Source: Qipengyuania marisflavi (GTDB lineage: Bacteria; Pseudomonadota; Alphaproteobacteria; Sphingomonadales; Sphingomonadaceae). Taken from it: a DNA stretch of 64,000 nucleotides. The translations under genes and the position numbers were made by a program. A model generated the notes under the pieces. That model did not search any database, had not been told where the DNA came from, and saw only the letters and a list, made by a program, of their open reading frames with translations. The stretch lies in contig NZ_VCAO01000003.1 of the NCBI RefSeq assembly GCF_005884405.1, positions 186,001 through 250,000 of the forward strand. The letters are read 5' to 3'. Below are positions 1 to 59,957 of this stretch, piece by piece; within the stretch, counting starts at the first letter, position 1, and each line of letters starts with the position of its first letter.

Positions 1-356
1 TTTGACAGATCCAACACACTGATCTGGCTGGCAAGCCATTCGATCCGGCGCTTCCGGGATTCGATCAGAATCACATTTGTATCTGGCCGCATGATTGCGA
101 TCACCAGCCCCGGAAAACCGGCTCCCGTTCCAAGATCCAGCCAGTCACCTGTTTCACGTGGAACATATTCAAGCAGTTGAGCCGAATCGGCGATGTGACG
201 CAGCCAAGTCTCTTCCAGCGTGCGCTTGGCGACAAGATTCTGTTGCTCGTTCTCGTCGCGCAGCGCGTGGCACAGCATCTCCAACTTCACCATCACGTCA
301 GGCTTTGTCGACTGCGCAACATAAGCACGCGCGGCGGTTTCATCTGTAAGTATCAT
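1..356 (-). CDS. rsmG: 16S rRNA (guanine-N7) methyltransferase RsmG, 5' part only
   Basis: The gene runs off the left edge; about 118 N-terminal residues are present. RsmG (GidB) methylates N7 of a guanine in the 530 loop of 16S rRNA using S-adenosylmethionine. The SAM-binding motif [12 protein letters not shown] is at residues 73-84 and is diagnostic for the family. The ATG at 356-354 overlaps the mnmG stop (ATGA), so the two are translationally coupled. A parS site lies inside the coding sequence, covering residues Val65-Thr69. In alphaproteobacteria parA and parB normally follow rsmG; they would be just outside the window. Confidence 0.95.
150..165. promoter_or_regulatory. parS centromere-like site 1, inside rsmG
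   Basis: The + strand reads TGTTTCACGTGGAACA; its complement TGTTCCACGTGAAACA fits the published ParB-binding consensus TGTTNCACGTGAAACA exactly. It is identical to the second site at 2255-2270. ParB loads here and, with ParA, segregates the origin region. It lies about 9.9 kb from the predicted oriC and sits in frame over rsmG codons 65-69. Confidence 0.92.
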
Positions 357-2254: not shown

Positions 2255-2270
2255 TGTTTCACGTGGAACA
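2255..2270. promoter_or_regulatory. parS centromere-like site 2, between mnmE and mnmG
   Basis: This is a second copy of TGTTTCACGTGGAACA, identical over all 16 bases to the site at 150-165 and in the same orientation. It abuts the mnmE stop codon (2271-2273) and fills part of the 61-base gap before mnmG. Two sites 2.1 kb apart, about 7.8 and 9.9 kb from the predicted oriC, are what a ParB loading zone is expected to look like. Confidence 0.92.
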
Positions 2271-3542
2271 TCATTTGCCGATACAGAACCGCCCAAACAA
2301 TGCGTCGAGCATTTCCTCGGTAGATTCGCGCCCCAACAGCCTGTCGAGCGCGCGGCGTGCGTATCGCAATTCCTCCGCGACCAGCAGCGGATCGTTGAGC
2401 TCAGCAAAATCCTTGAAAGCCGCAATCACCATCATCAGCGCGCCGCGTTGGCGTTGATTATATGCCGGTACATCACCTGATGGCAGCAGAGCACCGGCGC
2501 GCATCACCAGACCTTCGAGCAAATTTTCGAGGCCTTGGCCGGTTACAGCAGAAACCATATGAGCGGGCACGGTTTTAACGTGCCTGTTAAGATCACTCTT
2601 GGTTTCAATTTCGAGAGCATCAAGCGGCCCCTCACCTTCCGCTCCCAGCCACAGGATAATGTCGGCACGCTGCATTTCAGCCTGTGCTTTATCAATACCG
2701 ATCCGCTCGATCTCACCAGCGCTATCCGTACGCAGTCCGGCAGTATCAATCAGTACGAAAGGCACGCCCCGTATCGCCACTGGGCGCTCGATCACATCGC
2801 GCGTGGTCCCCGCCTCTGCCGAGACAATCGCCGCGCCCTCATTCAACATCGCATTGAATAAAGATGATTTTCCGGCGTTTGGTGGTCCGGCGAGGACCAC
2901 CCGAACACCATCGCGAAGGCGCTCGGCAAAGGGGCGGTTCAGCGCAGCGAATATCTCCGCTGAGAGCACCGCCCCTTCACTGGCTACCGATGCGGGTATG
3001 GTATCGACATCATCCTCGTCCGAGAAGTCGATCGCCGCCTCGACTTGCGCCGAAAGTTGCAAGATTGTGGTCCGCCAGCCTTCCACTTCCTTAGACAAGG
3101 AGCCGCCAACCGACCCCATCGCCCCGCGGCGTTGCAATTCGGTTTCAGCTGTAAGCAGATCAGCCAACCCCTCGGCTTCAGCCAGATCGATCCGGCCATT
3201 TAGGAAAGCGCGGCGGGTAAATTCACCCGCCTCAGCCTTGCGAACCCCATCTGTCGCCGCGAGAGCAGTCTCAACGGCCGCCACGACCGCGCGGCCGCCA
3301 TGGCAATGTAGTTCGGCAAGATCCTCGCCTGTCACAGTCGCAGGCCCCGGCAGCCACAGCACCAAAGCCCGGTCCAGCATGACATCACCGTCTCGCAACA
3401 CGCGCAGGCTGGCCATACGCGGCGGCGGCAAATCTCCCGATAGGTCGGCCAGCAGAGCGCCAGCTTTGGGGCCGCTGATCCGCAAAACCGCGATGCCCGC
3501 AGGCAGGGCACCGCTCGAAAGCGCGAAAATTGTATCAGTCAC
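2271..3542 (-). CDS. mnmE: tRNA modification GTPase MnmE (TrmE)
   Basis: The 423-residue protein is the GTPase partner of MnmG in wobble-uridine modification. An N-terminal folate-binding domain covers about residues 1-115. The G domain has the P-loop GPPNAGKSS at 219-227, the switch motif TTRD near 246-249 and DTAG at 266-269. The C-terminal FCIGK carries the catalytic cysteine of the family. The start codon is GTG (3542-3540), with a weak ribosome site. It sits 16 bases after the DUF6489 gene and 61 bases before mnmG. Confidence 0.97.
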
Positions 3543-3558
3543 GGCGCTGCTTCAGCTC

Positions 3559-3822
3559 TCAGTCGTCGGAGCTGGTGTCCTTGGACGAACGCCCCTTGGC
3601 CGCGCCTGCGCCTTCCATGAAGCTCTGGAAAAGCTTGAAGCCCGCCTGCCCCATGGGGGCCAGCTGGCGCGCATAGTCCTGCAATTGGTCGGGGCTGGAA
3701 ACGCCCTTCATCGCCTTTGACATCATGTCGACATAGATCGCATTGGCCTTGCCCACATCGGGCAAACCCATGAAGCTGCGCGCCTCTTCGGGGGTGCAGT
3801 CGATTTCGATTTGGACCTTCAT
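3559..3822 (-). CDS. Small conserved protein, DUF6489-like
   Basis: An 87-residue soluble protein beginning MKVQIEIDCTPEEARSFMGL. This resembles a short family seen next to mnmE in sphingomonads (DUF6489, from memory). It has no signal peptide or membrane segment. The middle is Met- and Gln-rich and could be helical; the tail is acidic and Ser-rich. Gene order suggests co-transcription with mnmE. No function is known to me. Confidence 0.8.
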   Translation of the reverse strand: MKVQIEIDCTPEEARSFMGLPDVGKANAIYVDMMSKAMKGVSSPDQLQDYARQLAPMGQAGFKLFQSFMEGAGAAKGRSSKDTSSDD

Positions 3823-3921
3823 GGCGGGTTCTCCGTTGGGCTAAGTATCGCCTGGCGGGTTTGGCACTTGTCGCGTGCAAGCGCTAGACCCGGCGCGCAT
3901 CAACCAGAGGACTGCCAAACG

Positions 3922-4617
3922 ATGAGCGAGACTGTCACCGTCACAACCCTGTCCGGCAAAGAGAATTTTGCAGCCTATGTTGCGCGCCCTGCTGATGCCC
4001 CGCGCGCCGCCATCGTGGTGATACAGGAGATTTTCGGGGTGAATGCGGGCATTCGCCGCAAATGCGACAAATTGGCTGAAGCAGGCTTTCTCGCCATCGC
4101 GCCTGATTTGTTCTGGAGGCTGGAGCCCGGCATCGAGCTGGATCCCGATATCGAACCCGAATTCCAGCGTGCGCTGGATCTGATGGGCAAGTTCAATCAG
4201 GATCAGGGCGTTCGTGACATCGAAGCCGCGATCAAATGGGCGCAGAGCGAAGGCTGCGGCAAGGTGGGCGCTGTTGGCTACTGCCTGGGCGGACGGCTCG
4301 CTTATATGGCCGCCGCACGGACTGATGCACATGCGACAGTCGGCTATTACGCGGTAGGCGTCGACGGCCTGTTGGGCGAAAAACACGCCATCGCGCATCC
4401 GCTTATGCTGCATATCCCCACCGATGACGGCTTTGTCGACAAGGCGGCGCAGCAGGCGATGCACGCCGGGCTGGATAATCACCCCAAGGTCACGCTCCAC
4501 GATTACGAAGGCATGGATCACGGGTTTGCTACCGAATTTGGCGACCGGCGAAGCGGGGAGGCCGCGCAACTGGCCGATGAGCGTACAATGGCGTTCTTTG
4601 CCGAGCATTTGGGATGA
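3922..4617 (+). CDS. Dienelactone hydrolase family protein
   Basis: A 231-residue alpha/beta hydrolase. The nucleophile elbow GYCLGG with a cysteine nucleophile is the hallmark of dienelactone hydrolases. The later segments TDDGFVD and MDHGFA supply the Asp and His of the triad. The family hydrolyses dienelactones and related esters; the substrate here is unknown. I chose the ATG at 3922 because the family starts shortly before this point, and the longer frame would run back over the divergent DUF6489 start. Its stop overlaps the next start (ATGA), so the two are probably co-transcribed. Confidence 0.9.
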   Translation: MSETVTVTTLSGKENFAAYVARPADAPRAAIVVIQEIFGVNAGIRRKCDKLAEAGFLAIAPDLFWRLEPGIELDPDIEPEFQRALDLMGKFNQDQGVRDIEAAIKWAQSEGCGKVGAVGYCLGGRLAYMAAARTDAHATVGYYAVGVDGLLGEKHAIAHPLMLHIPTDDGFVDKAAQQAMHAGLDNHPKVTLHDYEGMDHGFATEFGDRRSGEAAQLADERTMAFFAEHLG

Positions 4618-6242
4618 GTCAGAACAAGGCGGAGGTGCGGGGTTCATCAGAGCTGTTCATGCGGTTCGGCCTGCCGCTGGTGCTGTTGCTGCTGACCGTG
4701 CTGTTTGCTTGGGTTGAGTGGCTGCGCTGGGGGCTGGTCATCACCCTCCCCCTGCTCGGCATTGCGGTCCTGGACTTTTTTCAGCGCAAGCACTCGCTGC
4801 GCCGCAATTATCCGCTGCTGTCGCGTATGCGCTGGCTAATGGAGGATATGCGGCCGTTCCTGCGAGCCTATGTGGTTGAGGGCGACCTTGAAGGCCGCCC
4901 CTTCAACCATGACGAGCGATCACTGGTCTATGCCCGCGCCAAAGGGCAGCTCGATTCGCATCCCTTCGGGACCGAGCTGGACGTTTATTCCGATGAATAT
5001 GAATGGCTTGCGCATTCGATTGTGCCCAATGAGGAAGCTCCTGCGGAATGGCGGGTGGATGTGGGGAGCCAGCAATGCGCGCGCCCTTATTCGGCGGCTT
5101 TGCTCAATATTTCAGCAATGAGCTTTGGATCGCTGTCAGCCAATGCCATCATGGCGCTCAACAAGGGTGCGGCGGCGGGCAATTTCTATCACGACACCGG
5201 CGAAGGCGGCCTGTCACGCTATCACAAGGAACATGGCGGCGATCTGGTGTGGGAAATCGGCAGCGGCTATTTTGGTTGCCGAGATGACAATGCGGCGTTC
5301 GATCCCGCAAAATTTGCCGATACTGCGCAGCTCGATCAGGTCAAAATGGTCGAAATCAAGCTGAGCCAGGGTGCCAAACCGGGTCACGGCGGGGTGTTGC
5401 CGGGAACGAAGGTCACCAAGGAGATCGCCGCAGCGCGCGGGGTGCCCATCGGCACCGATTGCATTTCTCCGCCATCACATTCGACCTTTTCAACGCCTGT
5501 TGGTCTACTTGAATGGGCGGCCCAATTGCGTGAGCTTTCCGGCGGCAAGCCTGTCGGCATCAAACTGTGCGTGGGTAAGCCGCATGAGGTGTTCGCCATT
5601 GTCAAAGCGATGCGCGAAACCGGGATCACCCTCGATTACATTGTTGTCGATGGGGCCGAGGGCGGCACTGGCGCGGCTCCGGTTGAGTTTTCCAACCGCG
5701 TGGGCGCGCCCTTGCGTGAAGGGCTGATCTTGGTGCGCAATGCACTGGTTGGCGCTGGCCTGAAAGATCAGATCAAGATCGCCGCTGCCGGCAAAGTTCA
5801 TTCGGGCGCGGGTATGGCGATGAATTTCGGCCTTGGCGCGGATTGGTGCAATGCGGGCCGCGCGTTCATGTTTTCACTGGGCTGCGTGCAATCGATGAAT
5901 TGCCATACCGATCACTGCCCAACCGGCATCGCAACACAGGATGCCACCCGGCAACGCGGGCTTGTGGTCATGGACAAGGCCGAAAGAGTCACGCGGTTTC
6001 AGCGGCATACACTGCACGCATTGCGCGAAATGGTGATTGCGATGGGGCTGGACGATCCCTGGCAAATCGCCCCCTGTCACATCTCCGAACGGCTCAACAG
6101 TGCGCGTTCGGACAGTATCGACCGGATTTACAATTTCCTCGAACCGGGACAGCTCCTCGCCGATCCCGGTGGGACACAATATGCGCGCGACTGGGCCATC
6201 GCGAGCGCCTACAGCTTCGGAATGGCCGCATGTCAGCAGTAA
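4614..6242 (+). CDS. FMN-binding glutamate synthase family protein, membrane-anchored
   Basis: A 542-residue protein with two predicted membrane helices at about residues 15-50, followed by a domain like the FMN/synthase half of the glutamate synthase large subunit (alpha/beta barrel). Recognisable segments include LSRYHKEHGGDLVWEIGSGYF-like and KPGHGGVLPG, VDGAEGGTGAAP and the cysteine-containing CHTDHCPTGIATQD. The glutaminase half is absent, so it is a stand-alone flavoprotein whose electron donor and substrate are unknown. It overlaps the hydrolase gene by four bases at the start and the SnoaL-like gene by 13 bases at the end. Confidence 0.88.
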   Translation: MSQNKAEVRGSSELFMRFGLPLVLLLLTVLFAWVEWLRWGLVITLPLLGIAVLDFFQRKHSLRRNYPLLSRMRWLMEDMRPFLRAYVVEGDLEGRPFNHDERSLVYARAKGQLDSHPFGTELDVYSDEYEWLAHSIVPNEEAPAEWRVDVGSQQCARPYSAALLNISAMSFGSLSANAIMALNKGAAAGNFYHDTGEGGLSRYHKEHGGDLVWEIGSGYFGCRDDNAAFDPAKFADTAQLDQVKMVEIKLSQGAKPGHGGVLPGTKVTKEIAAARGVPIGTDCISPPSHSTFSTPVGLLEWAAQLRELSGGKPVGIKLCVGKPHEVFAIVKAMRETGITLDYIVVDGAEGGTGAAPVEFSNRVGAPLREGLILVRNALVGAGLKDQIKIAAAGKVHSGAGMAMNFGLGADWCNAGRAFMFSLGCVQSMNCHTDHCPTGIATQDATRQRGLVVMDKAERVTRFQRHTLHALREMVIAMGLDDPWQIAPCHISERLNSARSDSIDRIYNFLEPGQLLADPGGTQYARDWAIASAYSFGMAACQQ

Positions 6243-8995: not shown

Positions 8996-10021
8996 TCACC
9001 CCTGCCAGCCCCGTATACAGGCAATCAGCAGCTCAACATGCGCAATCGGCGTGCGGCGGTCGATCCCATGGCCCAGATTGAAGACATGCGGACGATCCGA
9101 AAAGGCTTCCAGAATGGTTCGCGTCCGGCTTTCCAGCCGCTGGCTACCGGACAACAGCAGCAACGGATCCAGATTGCCCTGCACCGGCATATCGGCGGGC
9201 AATTCGCGCGCGGCCCAGACTGGATCGATGGTTTCATCGACGCCCACGGCATCAACCCCGGTTTCGCGGGCATAGGCAGGCAATTTCGCGCCCACACCCT
9301 TGGGAAAGCCGATGATCGGAGTGCCGGGATGGCGCTGCTTGAGCGCGGCCACAATCCGCGCATTGGGCGCGATGACCCAGCGTTCAAACTCGTCAGGCGC
9401 CAGGCTGCCTGCCCAGCTATCAAACAATTGCACCGCTTCTGCGCCCGCTGTGATCTGTCCTGACAGATAGTCCACCGTCAGCGTTTCGATCGCGTCAACG
9501 ATGGCCTGAAAGGCTTGCGGATCGCGATAGGCCATCGCCCGCGCCTCGTGCTGGTCACGGCTGCCCTCGCCCGCCACCATGTACGTCGCCACGGTCCAGG
9601 GACTGCCAGCGAAGCCCAGCATTGTCACTTCAGGCGACAGCCGCGCCCGCACCCGGCGCACGGTTTCGTAAATCGGATCGAAGCGGGTCAAATCGGGCGC
9701 CAGCGATTCTAACGCAGCATCGACCAGGCGCGGGGACAGTTTGGGGCCTTCGCCTGCGAGAAATTCCAGATGCTGGCCCAGCGCATGGGGCACGATCAGA
9801 ATATCGGAAAACAGGATCGCGCCGTCAAAACCAAACCGGTCGATGGGCTGGACCGTAACTTCTGCCGCTGCCTCGCTGTCATAAGCCAGCGCCAGAAAGC
9901 CGCCTTTGTGCGCTCGCAGCTCACGATATTCGGGCAAATAGCGCCCTGCCTGACGCATGAGCCAGAGCGGCACGCCAACGCCGCGATTACCGTTCAGAGT
10001 GTCGAGAAGAAGACCGGGCAT
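8996..10021 (-). CDS. hemE: Uroporphyrinogen decarboxylase
   Basis: The 341-residue enzyme removes four carboxyl groups from uroporphyrinogen III to give coproporphyrinogen III. The first family signature, WLMRQAGRYLPEYRE, is near residue 20 and the second, GFAGSPWTVATYM, near residue 120. I chose the ATG at 10021-10019; the longer frame would run through the origin. In Caulobacter and Rickettsia hemE borders the chromosomal origin, and here it has the same place and direction. Confidence 0.97.
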   Translation of the reverse strand: MPGLLLDTLNGNRGVGVPLWLMRQAGRYLPEYRELRAHKGGFLALAYDSEAAAEVTVQPIDRFGFDGAILFSDILIVPHALGQHLEFLAGEGPKLSPRLVDAALESLAPDLTRFDPIYETVRRVRARLSPEVTMLGFAGSPWTVATYMVAGEGSRDQHEARAMAYRDPQAFQAIVDAIETLTVDYLSGQITAGAEAVQLFDSWAGSLAPDEFERWVIAPNARIVAALKQRHPGTPIIGFPKGVGAKLPAYARETGVDAVGVDETIDPVWAARELPADMPVQGNLDPLLLLSGSQRLESRTRTILEAFSDRPHVFNLGHGIDRRTPIAHVELLIACIRGWQG

Positions 10022-10339
10022 CTCAGAGTCTAATCCAATAATATTAGTATATATAAGTATTGATGTAGTTTGTTGGCCCTGTGGATATCGGGCATAGCGC
10101 GCCCCTGCCCGATTTCTCCCGCGATGCAAAGGTTCACTGCGCCATGCGACTCGCCAAAGGCCGTGAGTCGAGTCAGAGTTATGCCCTCTGTCCCCAGCCT
10201 GTCGACAAGCCAGCGCGCCTGTCCACAAGTGGGCAGGGCGAAGGCCGGTAGTGGGGAGCGAATCCACCCCCGAACTTGTCGCCAGCTTTCTCCCGTGGTT
10301 TATGCCGCGCATTGTCCACAGGCCGGAGTCCTGCCGCAC
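10022..10339. other. Predicted chromosomal replication origin (oriC)
   Basis: This 318-base gap lies between divergent hemE and the PPSR gene, the position of oriC in Caulobacter crescentus and Rickettsia prowazekii. Bases 10031-10070 are about 17% GC in a GC-rich window, suiting a DNA-unwinding element. DnaA-box-like sequences are TGTGGATAT (10080-10088, one mismatch to the consensus complement), TTGTCCACA (10312-10320, one mismatch) and CTGTCCACA (10219-10227, two mismatches). Five GANTC (CcrM) sites fall in the gap, at 10026, 10148, 10165, 10170 and 10326. Genes on either side mostly point outward, and two parS sites lie within 10 kb. No CtrA-type TTAA pairs were seen. Confidence 0.82.
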
Positions 10340-11185
10340 GTGACCTCGATCCACCTGCATCTGTTATCCGATTCCACCGGCGAAACGCTGGAAATGCTGG
10401 CCAAGGCGGCGCTGGCGCAATTCGAGAATGCCGACGTTGTCCGGCACTTCTGGCCGATGGTCAGGAGCCGCCAGCACCTTGACCGCATTGTCCCTGAATT
10501 CAAGGCCAATCCGGGGTTGGTGCTGTTCACTCTGGTCAATCCGGAAACCCGCGCCCGGCTGGAGGAAAGCTGTGCGCAGCTGGGTCTGCCGGCGGTGCCG
10601 ATCCTCGACCGGGTAACCGCCGCGCTGGAAAAGGCGCTGGGGCAGGAAGCGCATGGCCGCCCGGGTCGCCAGCACGCGATGGATCAGGCCTATTTCGAAC
10701 GGGTCGAGGCAATCCAGTTCACTATCGCGCATGATGACGGCATCGGCAGCGAGGATTGGGAAGAGGCCGATATCCTGCTGGCCGGGGTGTCGCGCAGCTC
10801 CAAGACGCCGACCAGCATCTATCTGGCCAATCGCGGGTACAAGGTCGCCAATATCCCGCTGGTGGTAGAAAGCCCGCCGCCGCCTGCGCTGTACCGGCTA
10901 AAGCATCCACTGGTGGTGGGGCTGACCACAGCGCCGGAGCGGCTGGTGCAAATCCGCCGCAACCGGCTGCTCAGCCTCAATGAGGGCCATCAGACCGCCT
11001 ATATCGACAATGAGCGGGTGAAGGACGAGGTCGCCTTTGCGCGGCGAATGTTCGCCGACAATGGCTGGGCCGTGATTGATGTTACGCGCCGCTCGATTGA
11101 GGAAACTGCTGCTGCGGTGATCCGCCTGCTGGGTGATCGCGGGCGGCACAAGGGTGGTGATTTCGAAGGGGTAAAACCGATATGA
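10340..11185 (+). CDS. ppsR: PEP synthase regulatory protein (kinase/pyrophosphorylase, DUF299)
   Basis: A 281-residue protein of the PPSR/PDRP family, which switches PEP synthase or pyruvate phosphate dikinase off and on by ADP-dependent phosphorylation and Pi-dependent removal. The N-terminal HLHLLSDSTGET and the P-loop GVSRSSKTPTS (149-159) are diagnostic. I chose GTG 10340, which gives the usual start just before HLHLLSDSTG; upstream codons lie in the origin region and are not conserved-looking. This is the gene called RP001 or duf299 next to oriC in other alphaproteobacteria. It overlaps maf by four bases. Confidence 0.93.
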   Translation: MTSIHLHLLSDSTGETLEMLAKAALAQFENADVVRHFWPMVRSRQHLDRIVPEFKANPGLVLFTLVNPETRARLEESCAQLGLPAVPILDRVTAALEKALGQEAHGRPGRQHAMDQAYFERVEAIQFTIAHDDGIGSEDWEEADILLAGVSRSSKTPTSIYLANRGYKVANIPLVVESPPPPALYRLKHPLVVGLTTAPERLVQIRRNRLLSLNEGHQTAYIDNERVKDEVAFARRMFADNGWAVIDVTRRSIEETAAAVIRLLGDRGRHKGGDFEGVKPI

Positions 11186-16329: not shown

Positions 16330-17103
16330 TCAGTCAGCGACTGCGACCCATACGGGTGCGTGGTCGCTGGCTTTTTCGCGCCCGCGGTGTTCCTTGTCGA
16401 CCCCGGCGCCGGTCATCCGGTCAGCCAGTTCTGGCGACAGCAGCAGGTGGTCGATCCGAAACCCGTGATCGCGCTGCCAGGCTCCGGCCTGATAATCCCA
16501 ATAGGTCCACACGCCGCCGCGCGGATTGAGCGTGCCCAGGGCATCGGTCCAGCCATCGGCCAGCACGCGGGAATAGGCATCGCGTGACTGCGGTTGCATC
16601 AATGCATCGCTGGCCATGGCACGCGGCGCCCAGACGTCTTTGTCGTCGGGGATAACATTGTAATCGCCGACCAGCGCGGTAGGGATTTCCTGCGCCCACA
16701 AGGTTGCCGCATGCGCCCGCAGCCGTTCCATCCAGCGCAGTTTGTAATCGAATTTCGGGCCGGGCAGCGGATTGCCATTGGGCAGATAGATACAGCCCAC
16801 ACGCACCCCGTTCACCTCGGCTTCGAGATAGCGTGAGTGATCGTCTTCCGGCTCGCCGGGCAAGCCCCGCTGTGTTTCGACGGGTTTCACCCCGTCAGCC
16901 AGTATCGCGACGCCGTTGAAGCTTTTCTGGCCATGCCAGATGGCGTGATATCCGATCTTCTCGAATTCGTCGGCGGGAAAGCCTTCGTCCTGCGTCTTGA
17001 TTTCCTGCAGGCAGGCGACGGTAGGCCGGGTTTCCTCGAGCCATTCGAGCAGGCGCGGCAGGCGCGCCTTGATGCCGTTGATGTTGAAGCTGGCGATACG
17101 CAT
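16330..17103 (-). CDS. xthA: Exodeoxyribonuclease III (AP endonuclease)
   Basis: A 257-residue Mg-dependent enzyme that cuts abasic sites and degrades 3' ends in base excision repair. The N-terminal ASFNINGIKARLPRLLEWL with its Asn, the CLQEIKTQD with metal-binding Glu, and VGDYNVIPDDKDVW with catalytic Asp/Asn are all present. The C-terminal SDHAPVWVAV holds the catalytic Asp-His pair. Length is typical (268 in E. coli). Confidence 0.96.
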   Translation of the reverse strand: MRIASFNINGIKARLPRLLEWLEETRPTVACLQEIKTQDEGFPADEFEKIGYHAIWHGQKSFNGVAILADGVKPVETQRGLPGEPEDDHSRYLEAEVNGVRVGCIYLPNGNPLPGPKFDYKLRWMERLRAHAATLWAQEIPTALVGDYNVIPDDKDVWAPRAMASDALMQPQSRDAYSRVLADGWTDALGTLNPRGGVWTYWDYQAGAWQRDHGFRIDHLLLSPELADRMTGAGVDKEHRGREKASDHAPVWVAVAD

Positions 17104-20917: not shown

Positions 20918-21430
20918 TCAGCTGCGCTTGCCAGCGATCCGCGTGATTTCCGCCTTCACCAGCTCTTCGACCATGCCGGGCAGGTTCTCGTCCAGCCATG
21001 CGGCCAGCATCGGGCGCAGCAATTCGCGTGTCAGCCCTTCGAGCGACGTTTCGCCGGAACGCACGATTTGCGGCTGTTTGCCGGGCTTGGACAGCATCGC
21101 CAGCGCGGCGAAGTTTTGCTGCATGGCCGTGCGCGTATCGGCGCGGACCAGTGGATCGTCGGCAGAGTCGCCGTCCTGCATGTCGCTATCACCGGAATCG
21201 CCAGGGCGATCATCAGCCTGCACCATTTCGGATTCGTCCAGCTCGAGAACTTCGGCAGCCTCTTCCGCATCGGCGGGTTCGGCGCGTTCGCCATCATCCG
21301 CGCCCACCATGTCAGAACCCAGCGTGCGACGGCGACGCTCGGCAATCGCGTCATCACGATTGTCGCGGGCAATCACCTTCTTGATCGAGTCGAGAATCTC
21401 TTCGACCGAGGGTTCACCTGGCTGGTGCAT
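20918..21430 (-). CDS. popZ: Polar organizing protein PopZ (DUF2497)
   Basis: A 170-residue PopZ-type protein. The N-terminal helix PSVEEILDSIKKVIARD is the conserved partner-binding segment. A long acidic linker (about 43-95) follows, and the C-terminal LLRPMLAAWLDENLPGMVEE is the oligomerisation region. In Caulobacter PopZ forms a polar matrix that anchors ParB-parS, so it fits the origin/partition context. It is the last gene of pcm-tolC-popZ. In many alphaproteobacteria valS comes next, but here an S9 peptidase does. Confidence 0.88.
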   Translation of the reverse strand: MHQPGEPSVEEILDSIKKVIARDNRDDAIAERRRRTLGSDMVGADDGERAEPADAEEAAEVLELDESEMVQADDRPGDSGDSDMQDGDSADDPLVRADTRTAMQQNFAALAMLSKPGKQPQIVRSGETSLEGLTRELLRPMLAAWLDENLPGMVEELVKAEITRIAGKRS

Positions 21431-21480
21431 GGAAATCTTCCCCTGTTGGCGAATCGCATTCTAGCCGATTCGGCGCAGGC

Positions 21481-59096: not shown

Positions 59097-59957
59097 TTAA
59101 AGCGGGGTAAAGTCGAGACCGATATCAGCAGCGGGCGCGCTTTGCGTCAGGCGGCCGACCGAGACGTAATTTACCCCGGTTGCAGCCTTGGCAGCGATGG
59201 TCTCCAGATTGATCCCGCCGCTGGCTTCGGTTGGCACGCGGCCTGCCACCAGCGCCACCGCTTCGCGCAGCATGGGCGGGGCCATATTGTCGAGCAGCAG
59301 ACGGGTTGCCCCGGCAGCCAGTGCGGGCTCGATCTGGTCGATGCGGTCGACTTCGCAGATAATGTCGGCGACGCCCGCATCCTTGGCGCGGCGCACGGCC
59401 TCGCCCACATTGCCCGCGACCAGAACATGGTTGTCCTTGATCATTGCCGCATCCCAAAGGCCCATGCGGTGATTCGCTGCGCCGCCCATGCGGACCGCGT
59501 ATTTCTCCAGATGGCGCAGACCGGGAATGGTCTTGCGGGTGTCGAGCAGAGTGCACGCCGGATTGTCCATCGCGCGGACATAGCCCTGCACCATGGTGGC
59601 GATACCCGACAGGTGTTGGACTGTGTTGAGCGCGCTGCGTTCGGCGGTCAGCATGGCGCGGGCATTGCCCGACAGCCGCATCAGATCGGTCCCGGCGGGC
59701 ACATCGGCGCCTTCCTCGACCAGAATTTCCACATCCATATCCGGCTCAAGCGCGCGGAAAAAAGCTGCGGCAATCGGCAGGCCCGCCACGAGGATGGCAT
59801 CGCGGGTGTCCATCACCCCGGCAAAACGCGCATCGGCAGGAATGACGCTCTCGCTGGTGACATCGCGCCCGCCGCCGGGAAGGCCGTCGCCAAGGTCCTC
59901 TGCAAGCGTATCGCGGACAAAGCGGTTCAGGTCGAAGCCGTCGATGTGAAACGCCAT
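59097..59957 (-). CDS. nadC: Quinolinate phosphoribosyltransferase (decarboxylating)
   Basis: A 286-residue enzyme that makes nicotinate mononucleotide from quinolinate and PRPP. Signature segments are LNTVQHLSGIATM, LDTRKTIPGLRHLEKYAVRMGG and NHRMGLWDAAMIKDNH, then GGINLETI for phosphate. The ATG at 59957 shares a base with the stop of the LytTR regulator, so it may be co-transcribed with that two-component pair. Confidence 0.96.
   Translation of the reverse strand: MAFHIDGFDLNRFVRDTLAEDLGDGLPGGGRDVTSESVIPADARFAGVMDTRDAILVAGLPIAAAFFRALEPDMDVEILVEEGADVPAGTDLMRLSGNARAMLTAERSALNTVQHLSGIATMVQGYVRAMDNPACTLLDTRKTIPGLRHLEKYAVRMGGAANHRMGLWDAAMIKDNHVLVAGNVGEAVRRAKDAGVADIICEVDRIDQIEPALAAGATRLLLDNMAPPMLREAVALVAGRVPTEASGGINLETIAAKAATGVNYVSVGRLTQSAPAADIGLDFTPL

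Follow-up and report, generated by a model that had tools for sequence, protein, structure and literature searches.

The 318-bp gap between the divergent hemE and PPSR genes of Qipengyuania marisflavi (10022–10339 of the window, by which we mean the whole 64,000-nucleotide stretch analysed) is almost certainly the chromosomal origin, oriC, as the original prediction had proposed and as GC skew, parS-like sites, distance from dnaA, synteny and sequence conservation all support. The location of the origin at hemE is not new, having been published for Sphingomonadaceae (PMC4741004); what is new is a GANTC site locked in position within the gap, together with its possible role. The cluster of GANTC sites and the pattern of change at the one at 10148 suggest, without proving, that CcrM methylation controls this origin.

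Position of the origin

The window corresponds to positions 186001–250000 of contig C12 in a genome of 2.67 Mb (2,669,685 bases in 18 contigs), of which 729,348 bases were read, including 460 kb of C12. Leftward from the gap lie hemE (start codon at 10019–10021, minus strand), a UPF0093 gene, rho, mnmE and mnmG, and rightward PPSR, maf, aroE, coaE, dnaQ and an S30AE gene. The original prediction had noted that genes mostly point away from the gap, and on both sides they do, with exceptions at 3811–4617 and 4614–6242 (both plus strand) on the left and at 16330, 18727, 20918 and 21481 (minus strand) on the right, in a tally over those ORFs of the window that were annotated. The gap occupies the place of the alphaproteobacterial hemE-type oriC, between hemE and COG1806/PPSR, the same two genes that border the origins of Caulobacter and Rickettsia (PMC1914354).

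Cumulative GC skew, established for C12 only and not for the whole chromosome, has its minimum at 189,789, 6.2 kb from the gap, and rises afterwards; in a single-break fit on C12 the eight best breakpoints fell at 189–197 kb, the gap being at 196.0–196.3 kb. The skew of two relatives sampled at 20 stretches each (G012 and G019) split best at PPSR, within the sampling step, with three of the 20 stretches wrong-signed in each. The GC-skew switch of a hemE-type oriC is present on C12, with two sampled relatives in agreement. All three parS-like sites found in the genome (at most two mismatches) lie at C12:185,788–188,270, 7.8–10.2 kb left of the gap, two of them inside the window (Table 1) and the third just outside its left edge. 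Likewise, every match to the parS sequence TGTTYCACGTGRAACA lies ~5–11 kb from PPSR in all eight single-contig relatives searched (in G037, counted across contig ends). The dnaA gene is on a different contig from the gap, and in the same number of single-contig relatives (8/8, contigs treated as circles) it is 0.33–1.33 Mb from hemE–PPSR, and an origin beside dnaA was rejected on these grounds; a skew minimum next to dnaA, the outcome that the original prediction had named as speaking against it, was not found on C12. dnaA is also reported not to be conserved near the origin in Sphingomonadales (PMC8116508).

Table 1. Features of the predicted origin and its surroundings (window positions).
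Feature	Position	Strand	Remarks
parS-like site	150..165		one mismatch
parS-like site	2255..2270		one mismatch
hemE, left boundary gene	8996..10021	-	TIGR01464, 380 bits
Predicted oriC, whole hemE–PPSR intergenic region	10022..10339		box score, skew, parS, synteny
GANTC at hemE edge	10026..10030		27/80 by exact column, 39/80 within four bases
Putative AT-rich unwinding element, upstream of hemE	10031..10070		17.5% GC 40-mer
T/G-rich stretch and GC spacer GATGTAGTTTGTTGGCCC, from AT-rich element to first box	10062..10079	+	trio-like
DUE-proximal DnaA box ATATCCACA, R1-like	10080..10088	-	one mismatch; TGTGGA conserved
GANTC site GACTC	10148..10152		79/80 aligned; near fixed distance from first box
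Tandem GANTC GAGTCGAGTC	10165..10174		10165 site 49/80, 10170 site 40/80 by exact column
Weak DnaA-box-like row TTATGCCCT, CTGTCCCCA, TTGTCGACA (minus), CTGTCCACA	10179..10227		two to three mismatches each
GANTC (GAATC)	10260..10264		19/80 by exact column
Conserved block CTTGTC...CCGTGGTTTAT	10275..10303		CTTGTC 76/80, CCGTGGTTTAT 76/80 gaps
PPSR-proximal DnaA box TTGTCCACA, R4-like	10312..10320	+	one mismatch; TCCACA conserved
GANTC, at that place in this genome only	10326..10330		1/80
PPSR gene, right boundary gene	10340..11185	+	NF003742, 331 bits

Conservation among relatives

By PPSR protein, the nearest named relatives among the best 80 of 252 are Qipengyuania and Erythrobacter. Divergent hemE and PPSR neighbours were found at 136 of 139 loci, our own included (of the exceptions, L114 and L123 are cut near a contig end and L172 has no visible hemE). 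The same arrangement was seen at 38 of 40 loci added from the order and class, the exceptions L239 and L248 having no hemE in the ~1.2 kb read, and at 48 of 49 loci added from the family, where L310 showed none. There is overlap among these sets: 14 of the 25 same-genus gaps and three of the 48 family gaps are identical to members of the 80-gap set described below. In the class draw, 36 of 114 genomes had no PPSR match and 18 of 77 others that matched had their gap left out; in the family draw, 2 of 59 genomes had no match and seven were left out, as was the gap of G037.

We aligned 80 family gaps, our own included, and counted changes on a tree of the hemE and PPSR proteins. Against a median of 12 inferred changes per column, there were none in the TGTGGA columns of the first box (one row is gapped at the T), 0–2 in the TCCACA columns of the distal box, whose third base had 19, and 0–3 per column in CTTGTC and CCGTGGTTTAT; the end boxes are conserved mainly in their TCCACA half. 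TTGG.CCTGTGGA occurs in 74 of the 80 gaps and T.TCCACA in 66, and TTATCCACA, in either orientation, in four. Corresponding counts among the 48 gaps of the wider family draw were 21 for TTGG.CCTGTGGA, 37 for T.TCCACA and 12 for exact TTATCCACA, with CTTGTC in 29 and GTGGTTTAT in 25, and neither TTGG.CCTGTGGA nor GTGGTTTAT was found in the 27 class gaps. A T/G-rich run ahead of the first box recurs in other alphaproteobacterial families (L176, L241, L245), and in many order and class gaps our script located no such first box.

AT-rich element and DnaA boxes

The 40-base stretch that the original prediction had put at about 17% GC is, at 10031–10070, the second-lowest-GC 40-mer in 460 kb of C12 and provides the AT-rich unwinding element of a hemE-type oriC. 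Between it and the first box, columns 10072–10076 are each at least 93% identical across the 80 gaps. The original prediction had listed three DnaA-box-like sequences; such boxes are indeed present, and with up to two mismatches to TTATCCACA they number four, at 10080 (minus strand, one mismatch), 10200 (minus, two), 10219 (plus, two) and 10312 (plus, one). No exact TTATCCACA turned up in a scan of the window allowing up to one mismatch, in line with what had been noted originally. No other 318-bp window in 460 kb of C12 has as high a DnaA-box score as the gap (6), and no other holds three TNTCCACA. The number of boxes by itself is not beyond chance and is weak evidence: boxes with at most one mismatch number 36 in the 460 kb, where two pairs lie no more than 318 bp apart and 0.88 would be expected (P 0.22), and six in the window against 4.95 expected. 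The hemE-type pattern of DnaA boxes is seen in the four boxes together with the conservation of both end boxes, which are opposite in orientation in the 69 of 80 gaps where this was measurable, a median of 233 bp apart (range 138–255). We call them R1-like and R4-like, after the E. coli end boxes R1 and R4. From their sequences we infer that the row at 10179–10227 may act as weak DnaA sites, and the block at 10275–10303 could be either a pair of opposed weak DnaA sites or the PPSR promoter.

Directly after the first box there is an inverted repeat (GATATCGGGCA / TGCCCGATTTC, 10084–10116), and the TGCC in its right arm is conserved across the 80 gaps. The idea that the boxes are degenerate because the recognition helix of DnaA has changed was not supported: of the domain IV residues compared (E. 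coli 397–440), the genome's own DnaA keeps all except T435, which is S. Elsewhere in this DnaA (L002, 880–2511) the Walker A motif reads AATGQGKT, compared with GGTGLGKT in E. coli; the residue matching E. coli G172 is A here and in five of eight relatives (L269–L276), S in G050 and G in G017 and G037.

That the gap holds the divergent hemE and PPSR promoters and nothing more, with the origin elsewhere, for example near parS or dnaA, is in our judgement highly improbable. The AT-rich stretch does adjoin hemE, and the CTTGTC...GTGGTTTAT block has, by eye, the spacing of a promoter; however, a sigma-70 scan of the gap found no promoter (nor was any terminator found), and promoters would leave the opposed end boxes unexplained. 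An origin on the parS side would suit the position of the skew minimum to the left of the gap and the runner-up window by box score (5), at 4272, but that window is within a hydrolase gene of 62% GC and the lowest 40-mer GC over 3500–5000 is 45%; an origin at the box cluster found there (4323–4470), near the skew minimum, was accordingly rejected. A place near dnaA could appeal to Novosphingobium PP1Y, whose origin is reported to lie near hemE, with three boxes, and also close to a dnaA gene (PMC4059872), unlike in the genomes measured here, where the distances to dnaA given above tell against it.

GANTC sites in the gap

GANTC occurs 93 times in the window, against 249 expected, and six of these sites are inside the 318-bp gap, a number that none of 5000 first-order Markov shuffles reached. 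With expectations from base composition, the observed/expected ratio of GANTC was 4.34 in the 80 gaps, 4.57 in the 48 further family gaps and 1.62 in the 70 order and class gaps, in each set the highest of 16 five-base palindromes. By GANTC density the gap ranks second in 460 kb of C12 (6 vs 7), and its six sites are equalled by one window on another contig; among the stretches sampled in relatives, the gap ranks second in G012 (7 vs 12) and first in G019. At this origin there is an excess of methylase targets of the kind associated with Dam in E. coli.

The best-kept of these sites is the one at 10148, which is some 125 bp away from hemE and 190 bp away from PPSR. The sole row of the 80 that lacks it (L156) is gapped there. 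Its central base is C in 48 rows, A in 30 and G in one, never T, and the tree implies about 14 changes at this base and none at the G, A, T and C around it; 78 of the 80 rows also retain the C that precedes the site. Of the 98 distinct gaps in which the distance from the first box could be determined, 96 have a GANTC beginning at +66 to +72, and the other two have one at +80 (the distance was not measurable in 27 of 125 gaps, 24 of them from the wider family draw). When duplicates are counted, GANTC is found at +66 to +72 in 99 of 101 gaps, TCNGA in nine and six other palindromes in none of the 101. TTGG.CCTGTGGA, a GANTC at ~+69, CCGTGGTTTAT and TNNTCCACA could together serve as a motif set by which to annotate oriC across the Qipengyuania–Erythrobacter–Novosphingobium group.

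Several other GANTC-rich places came to light. On C12, GANTC is densest, within the 460 kb read, in a window with seven sites across the 5' part of a DUF2497 (PopZ-like) gene and its upstream DNA, 11 kb to the right of the origin (window positions 20918–21430, minus strand, and 21165–21471). At ~2115 of L194, in G012, 12 GANTC sites within ~315 bp precede an ORF that looks like an aspartyl protease and adjoin an ABC transporter ORF (both named by eye). Among the origin gaps themselves, the 343-bp hemE–PPSR gap of G192 (L313) has 19. In L159, L163, L183 and L236, from other alphaproteobacteria, a GANTC and the first DnaA box are immediately adjacent (TGANTCCTGTGGAT); contact of this kind, seen at these four loci among the order and class gaps listed, is absent from our own gap and was rejected as a general trait.

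Methylase and regulators

The genome encodes GcrA and a CcrM-like protein. Among solved structures this protein matches CcrM best (6pbd, 498 bits), though it falls under the NCBI cut-off of the Caulobacter-type model (603 vs 830 bits). The IHF site of Caulobacter-type origins, sought as the consensus WATCAANNNNTTR, was found in none of the 80 family gaps. Nor was the CtrA site TTAA-N7-TTAA of Caulobacter-type Cori regulation present in any of the 80, our own gap included, as the original prediction had noted for the latter; the window has a single one-mismatch match, at 59097. One review states that CtrA sites have not been seen in origins besides that of Caulobacter, with Rickettsia a possible exception (PMC4468827), a claim opposed by the sites predicted in most of the Wolbachia, Anaplasma and Ehrlichia origins treated in PMC1914354 and by the TTAA-N7-TTAA matches that we find in 4 of 27 class gaps and 1 of 48 wider family gaps. 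Sphingomonas melonis reportedly can lose ctrA without harm to growth (PMC8116508).

In Sphingomonas AAP5 no methylated motif is reported to be more abundant than GANTC (PMC8067484), and in Zymomonas GANTC is described as 99% methylated (PMC8432527); both belong to the same order, and the term oriC is absent from the text of these two papers. In the titles and abstract openings of the open-access literature that we searched, a GANTC cluster at sphingomonad origins is undescribed. For Caulobacter, whose origin contains several GANTC motifs, loss of CcrM is reported to leave DNA content unchanged, and extra chromosome copies on CcrM over-expression are cited in the same source (PMC3973325).

Possible roles of the GANTC sites

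A serious contender, whose chances we put only a little short of evenly balanced, is that the GANTC sites act in transcription of hemE or PPSR under GcrA and CcrM and have no part in replication. The genome has GcrA, other genes carry denser GANTC (the DUF2497 gene here, L194 of G012), and alphaproteobacterial intergenic DNA is reported to be GANTC-enriched in general; on average, however, that enrichment is given as >1.5-fold (PMC3973325), compared with 4.3–4.6-fold here, and transcription does not readily account for a best-kept site that sits in the middle of the origin at a near fixed distance from the first box. We think it unlikely, in turn, that the 10148 site is kept for some other DNA-binding protein that reads CGA[C/A]TC, with CcrM irrelevant to it. 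A restriction of the central base to C or A (78 of 79 rows, never T) and the retention of the preceding C are not required of a pure GANTC site and would fit such a protein, but it would not explain why other sites in the same gaps have other central bases and why GANTC is enriched as a class.

By analogy with E. coli and Caulobacter, DnaA would bind the two end boxes (10080, R1-like; 10312, R4-like), cooperatively fill the weak sites between them, melt the AT-rich stretch at 10031–10070 and load the helicase. Once replication had begun, the GANTC sites would stay hemimethylated for as long as CcrM had not acted, a state that, hypothetically, might tune either DnaA binding or hemE/PPSR transcription. 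Our broader proposal, which we offer tentatively and regard as more doubtful than probable, is that Sphingomonadaceae origins carry a selected cluster of CcrM (GANTC) sites, anchored in the Qipengyuania–Erythrobacter–Novosphingobium group by the near-invariant +66 to +72 site, and that the hemimethylated state following initiation restrains re-initiation or determines when it occurs. If true, the proposal would give alphaproteobacteria an analogue of Dam/SeqA control, in a group whose origins lack CtrA sites, and would bear on how such bacteria hold initiation to a single event in each cycle. A GANTC site with fixed G, A, T and C around a varying centre is a specific, testable target for studying CcrM control of an origin.

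Comparison with known origins

In Sphingomonadaceae, oriC is reported at hemE in most members, and the gap here shares that hemE-side place, a putative DUE and DnaA boxes with the origin of Sphingopyxis granuli TFA and its family (DoriC/Ori-Finder), conserved boxes and a putative DUE being described in Sphingopyxis; GANTC sites and an R1/R4-like arrangement are not mentioned in the parts of that account on which we draw (PMC4741004). With Caulobacter crescentus Cori the gap has in common the hemE/COG1806 flanks, a 40-bp AT-rich region, weak DnaA boxes and several GANTC sites (PMC4468827, PMC1914354, PMC3973325), and it differs in having neither a CtrA nor an IHF consensus site. The original prediction had called the control of this origin unlike that in Caulobacter: this stands for the missing CtrA sites but not for the degenerate boxes, as Cori itself relies on weak G- and W-boxes (PMC4468827).

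The order on one strand of T/G-rich stretch, GC spacer and box is that of the BUS/DnaA-trio system (PMC8287927). Under our own coding of the single-box rule of that source (a box with at most two mismatches, a spacer of 0–16 and at least three NAN trios), which E. coli oriC passes, strict membership was rejected for our own gap, with none on either strand; on the forward strand, 14 of 80 family gaps pass (4% of shuffles), as do 26 of the 70 gaps from the order and class (12% of shuffles).

The flanking genes differ between E. coli oriC (NC_000913) and the gap, and the end boxes are 180 bp apart there and 232 bp here. Both have a cluster of methylase sites, 11 GATC in the annotated 232 bp of E. 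coli and GANTC here, and by eye a 12-base match, GCCCTGTGGATA, can be read between the first-box region and the E. coli sequence. In both, the DUE is followed by a DUE-side box, TGTGGATAA, and then by an inverted box at the far end, so that, judged by its sequence, the predicted layout of the gap is like that of E. coli oriC, an AT-rich element with an oppositely oriented box at each end.
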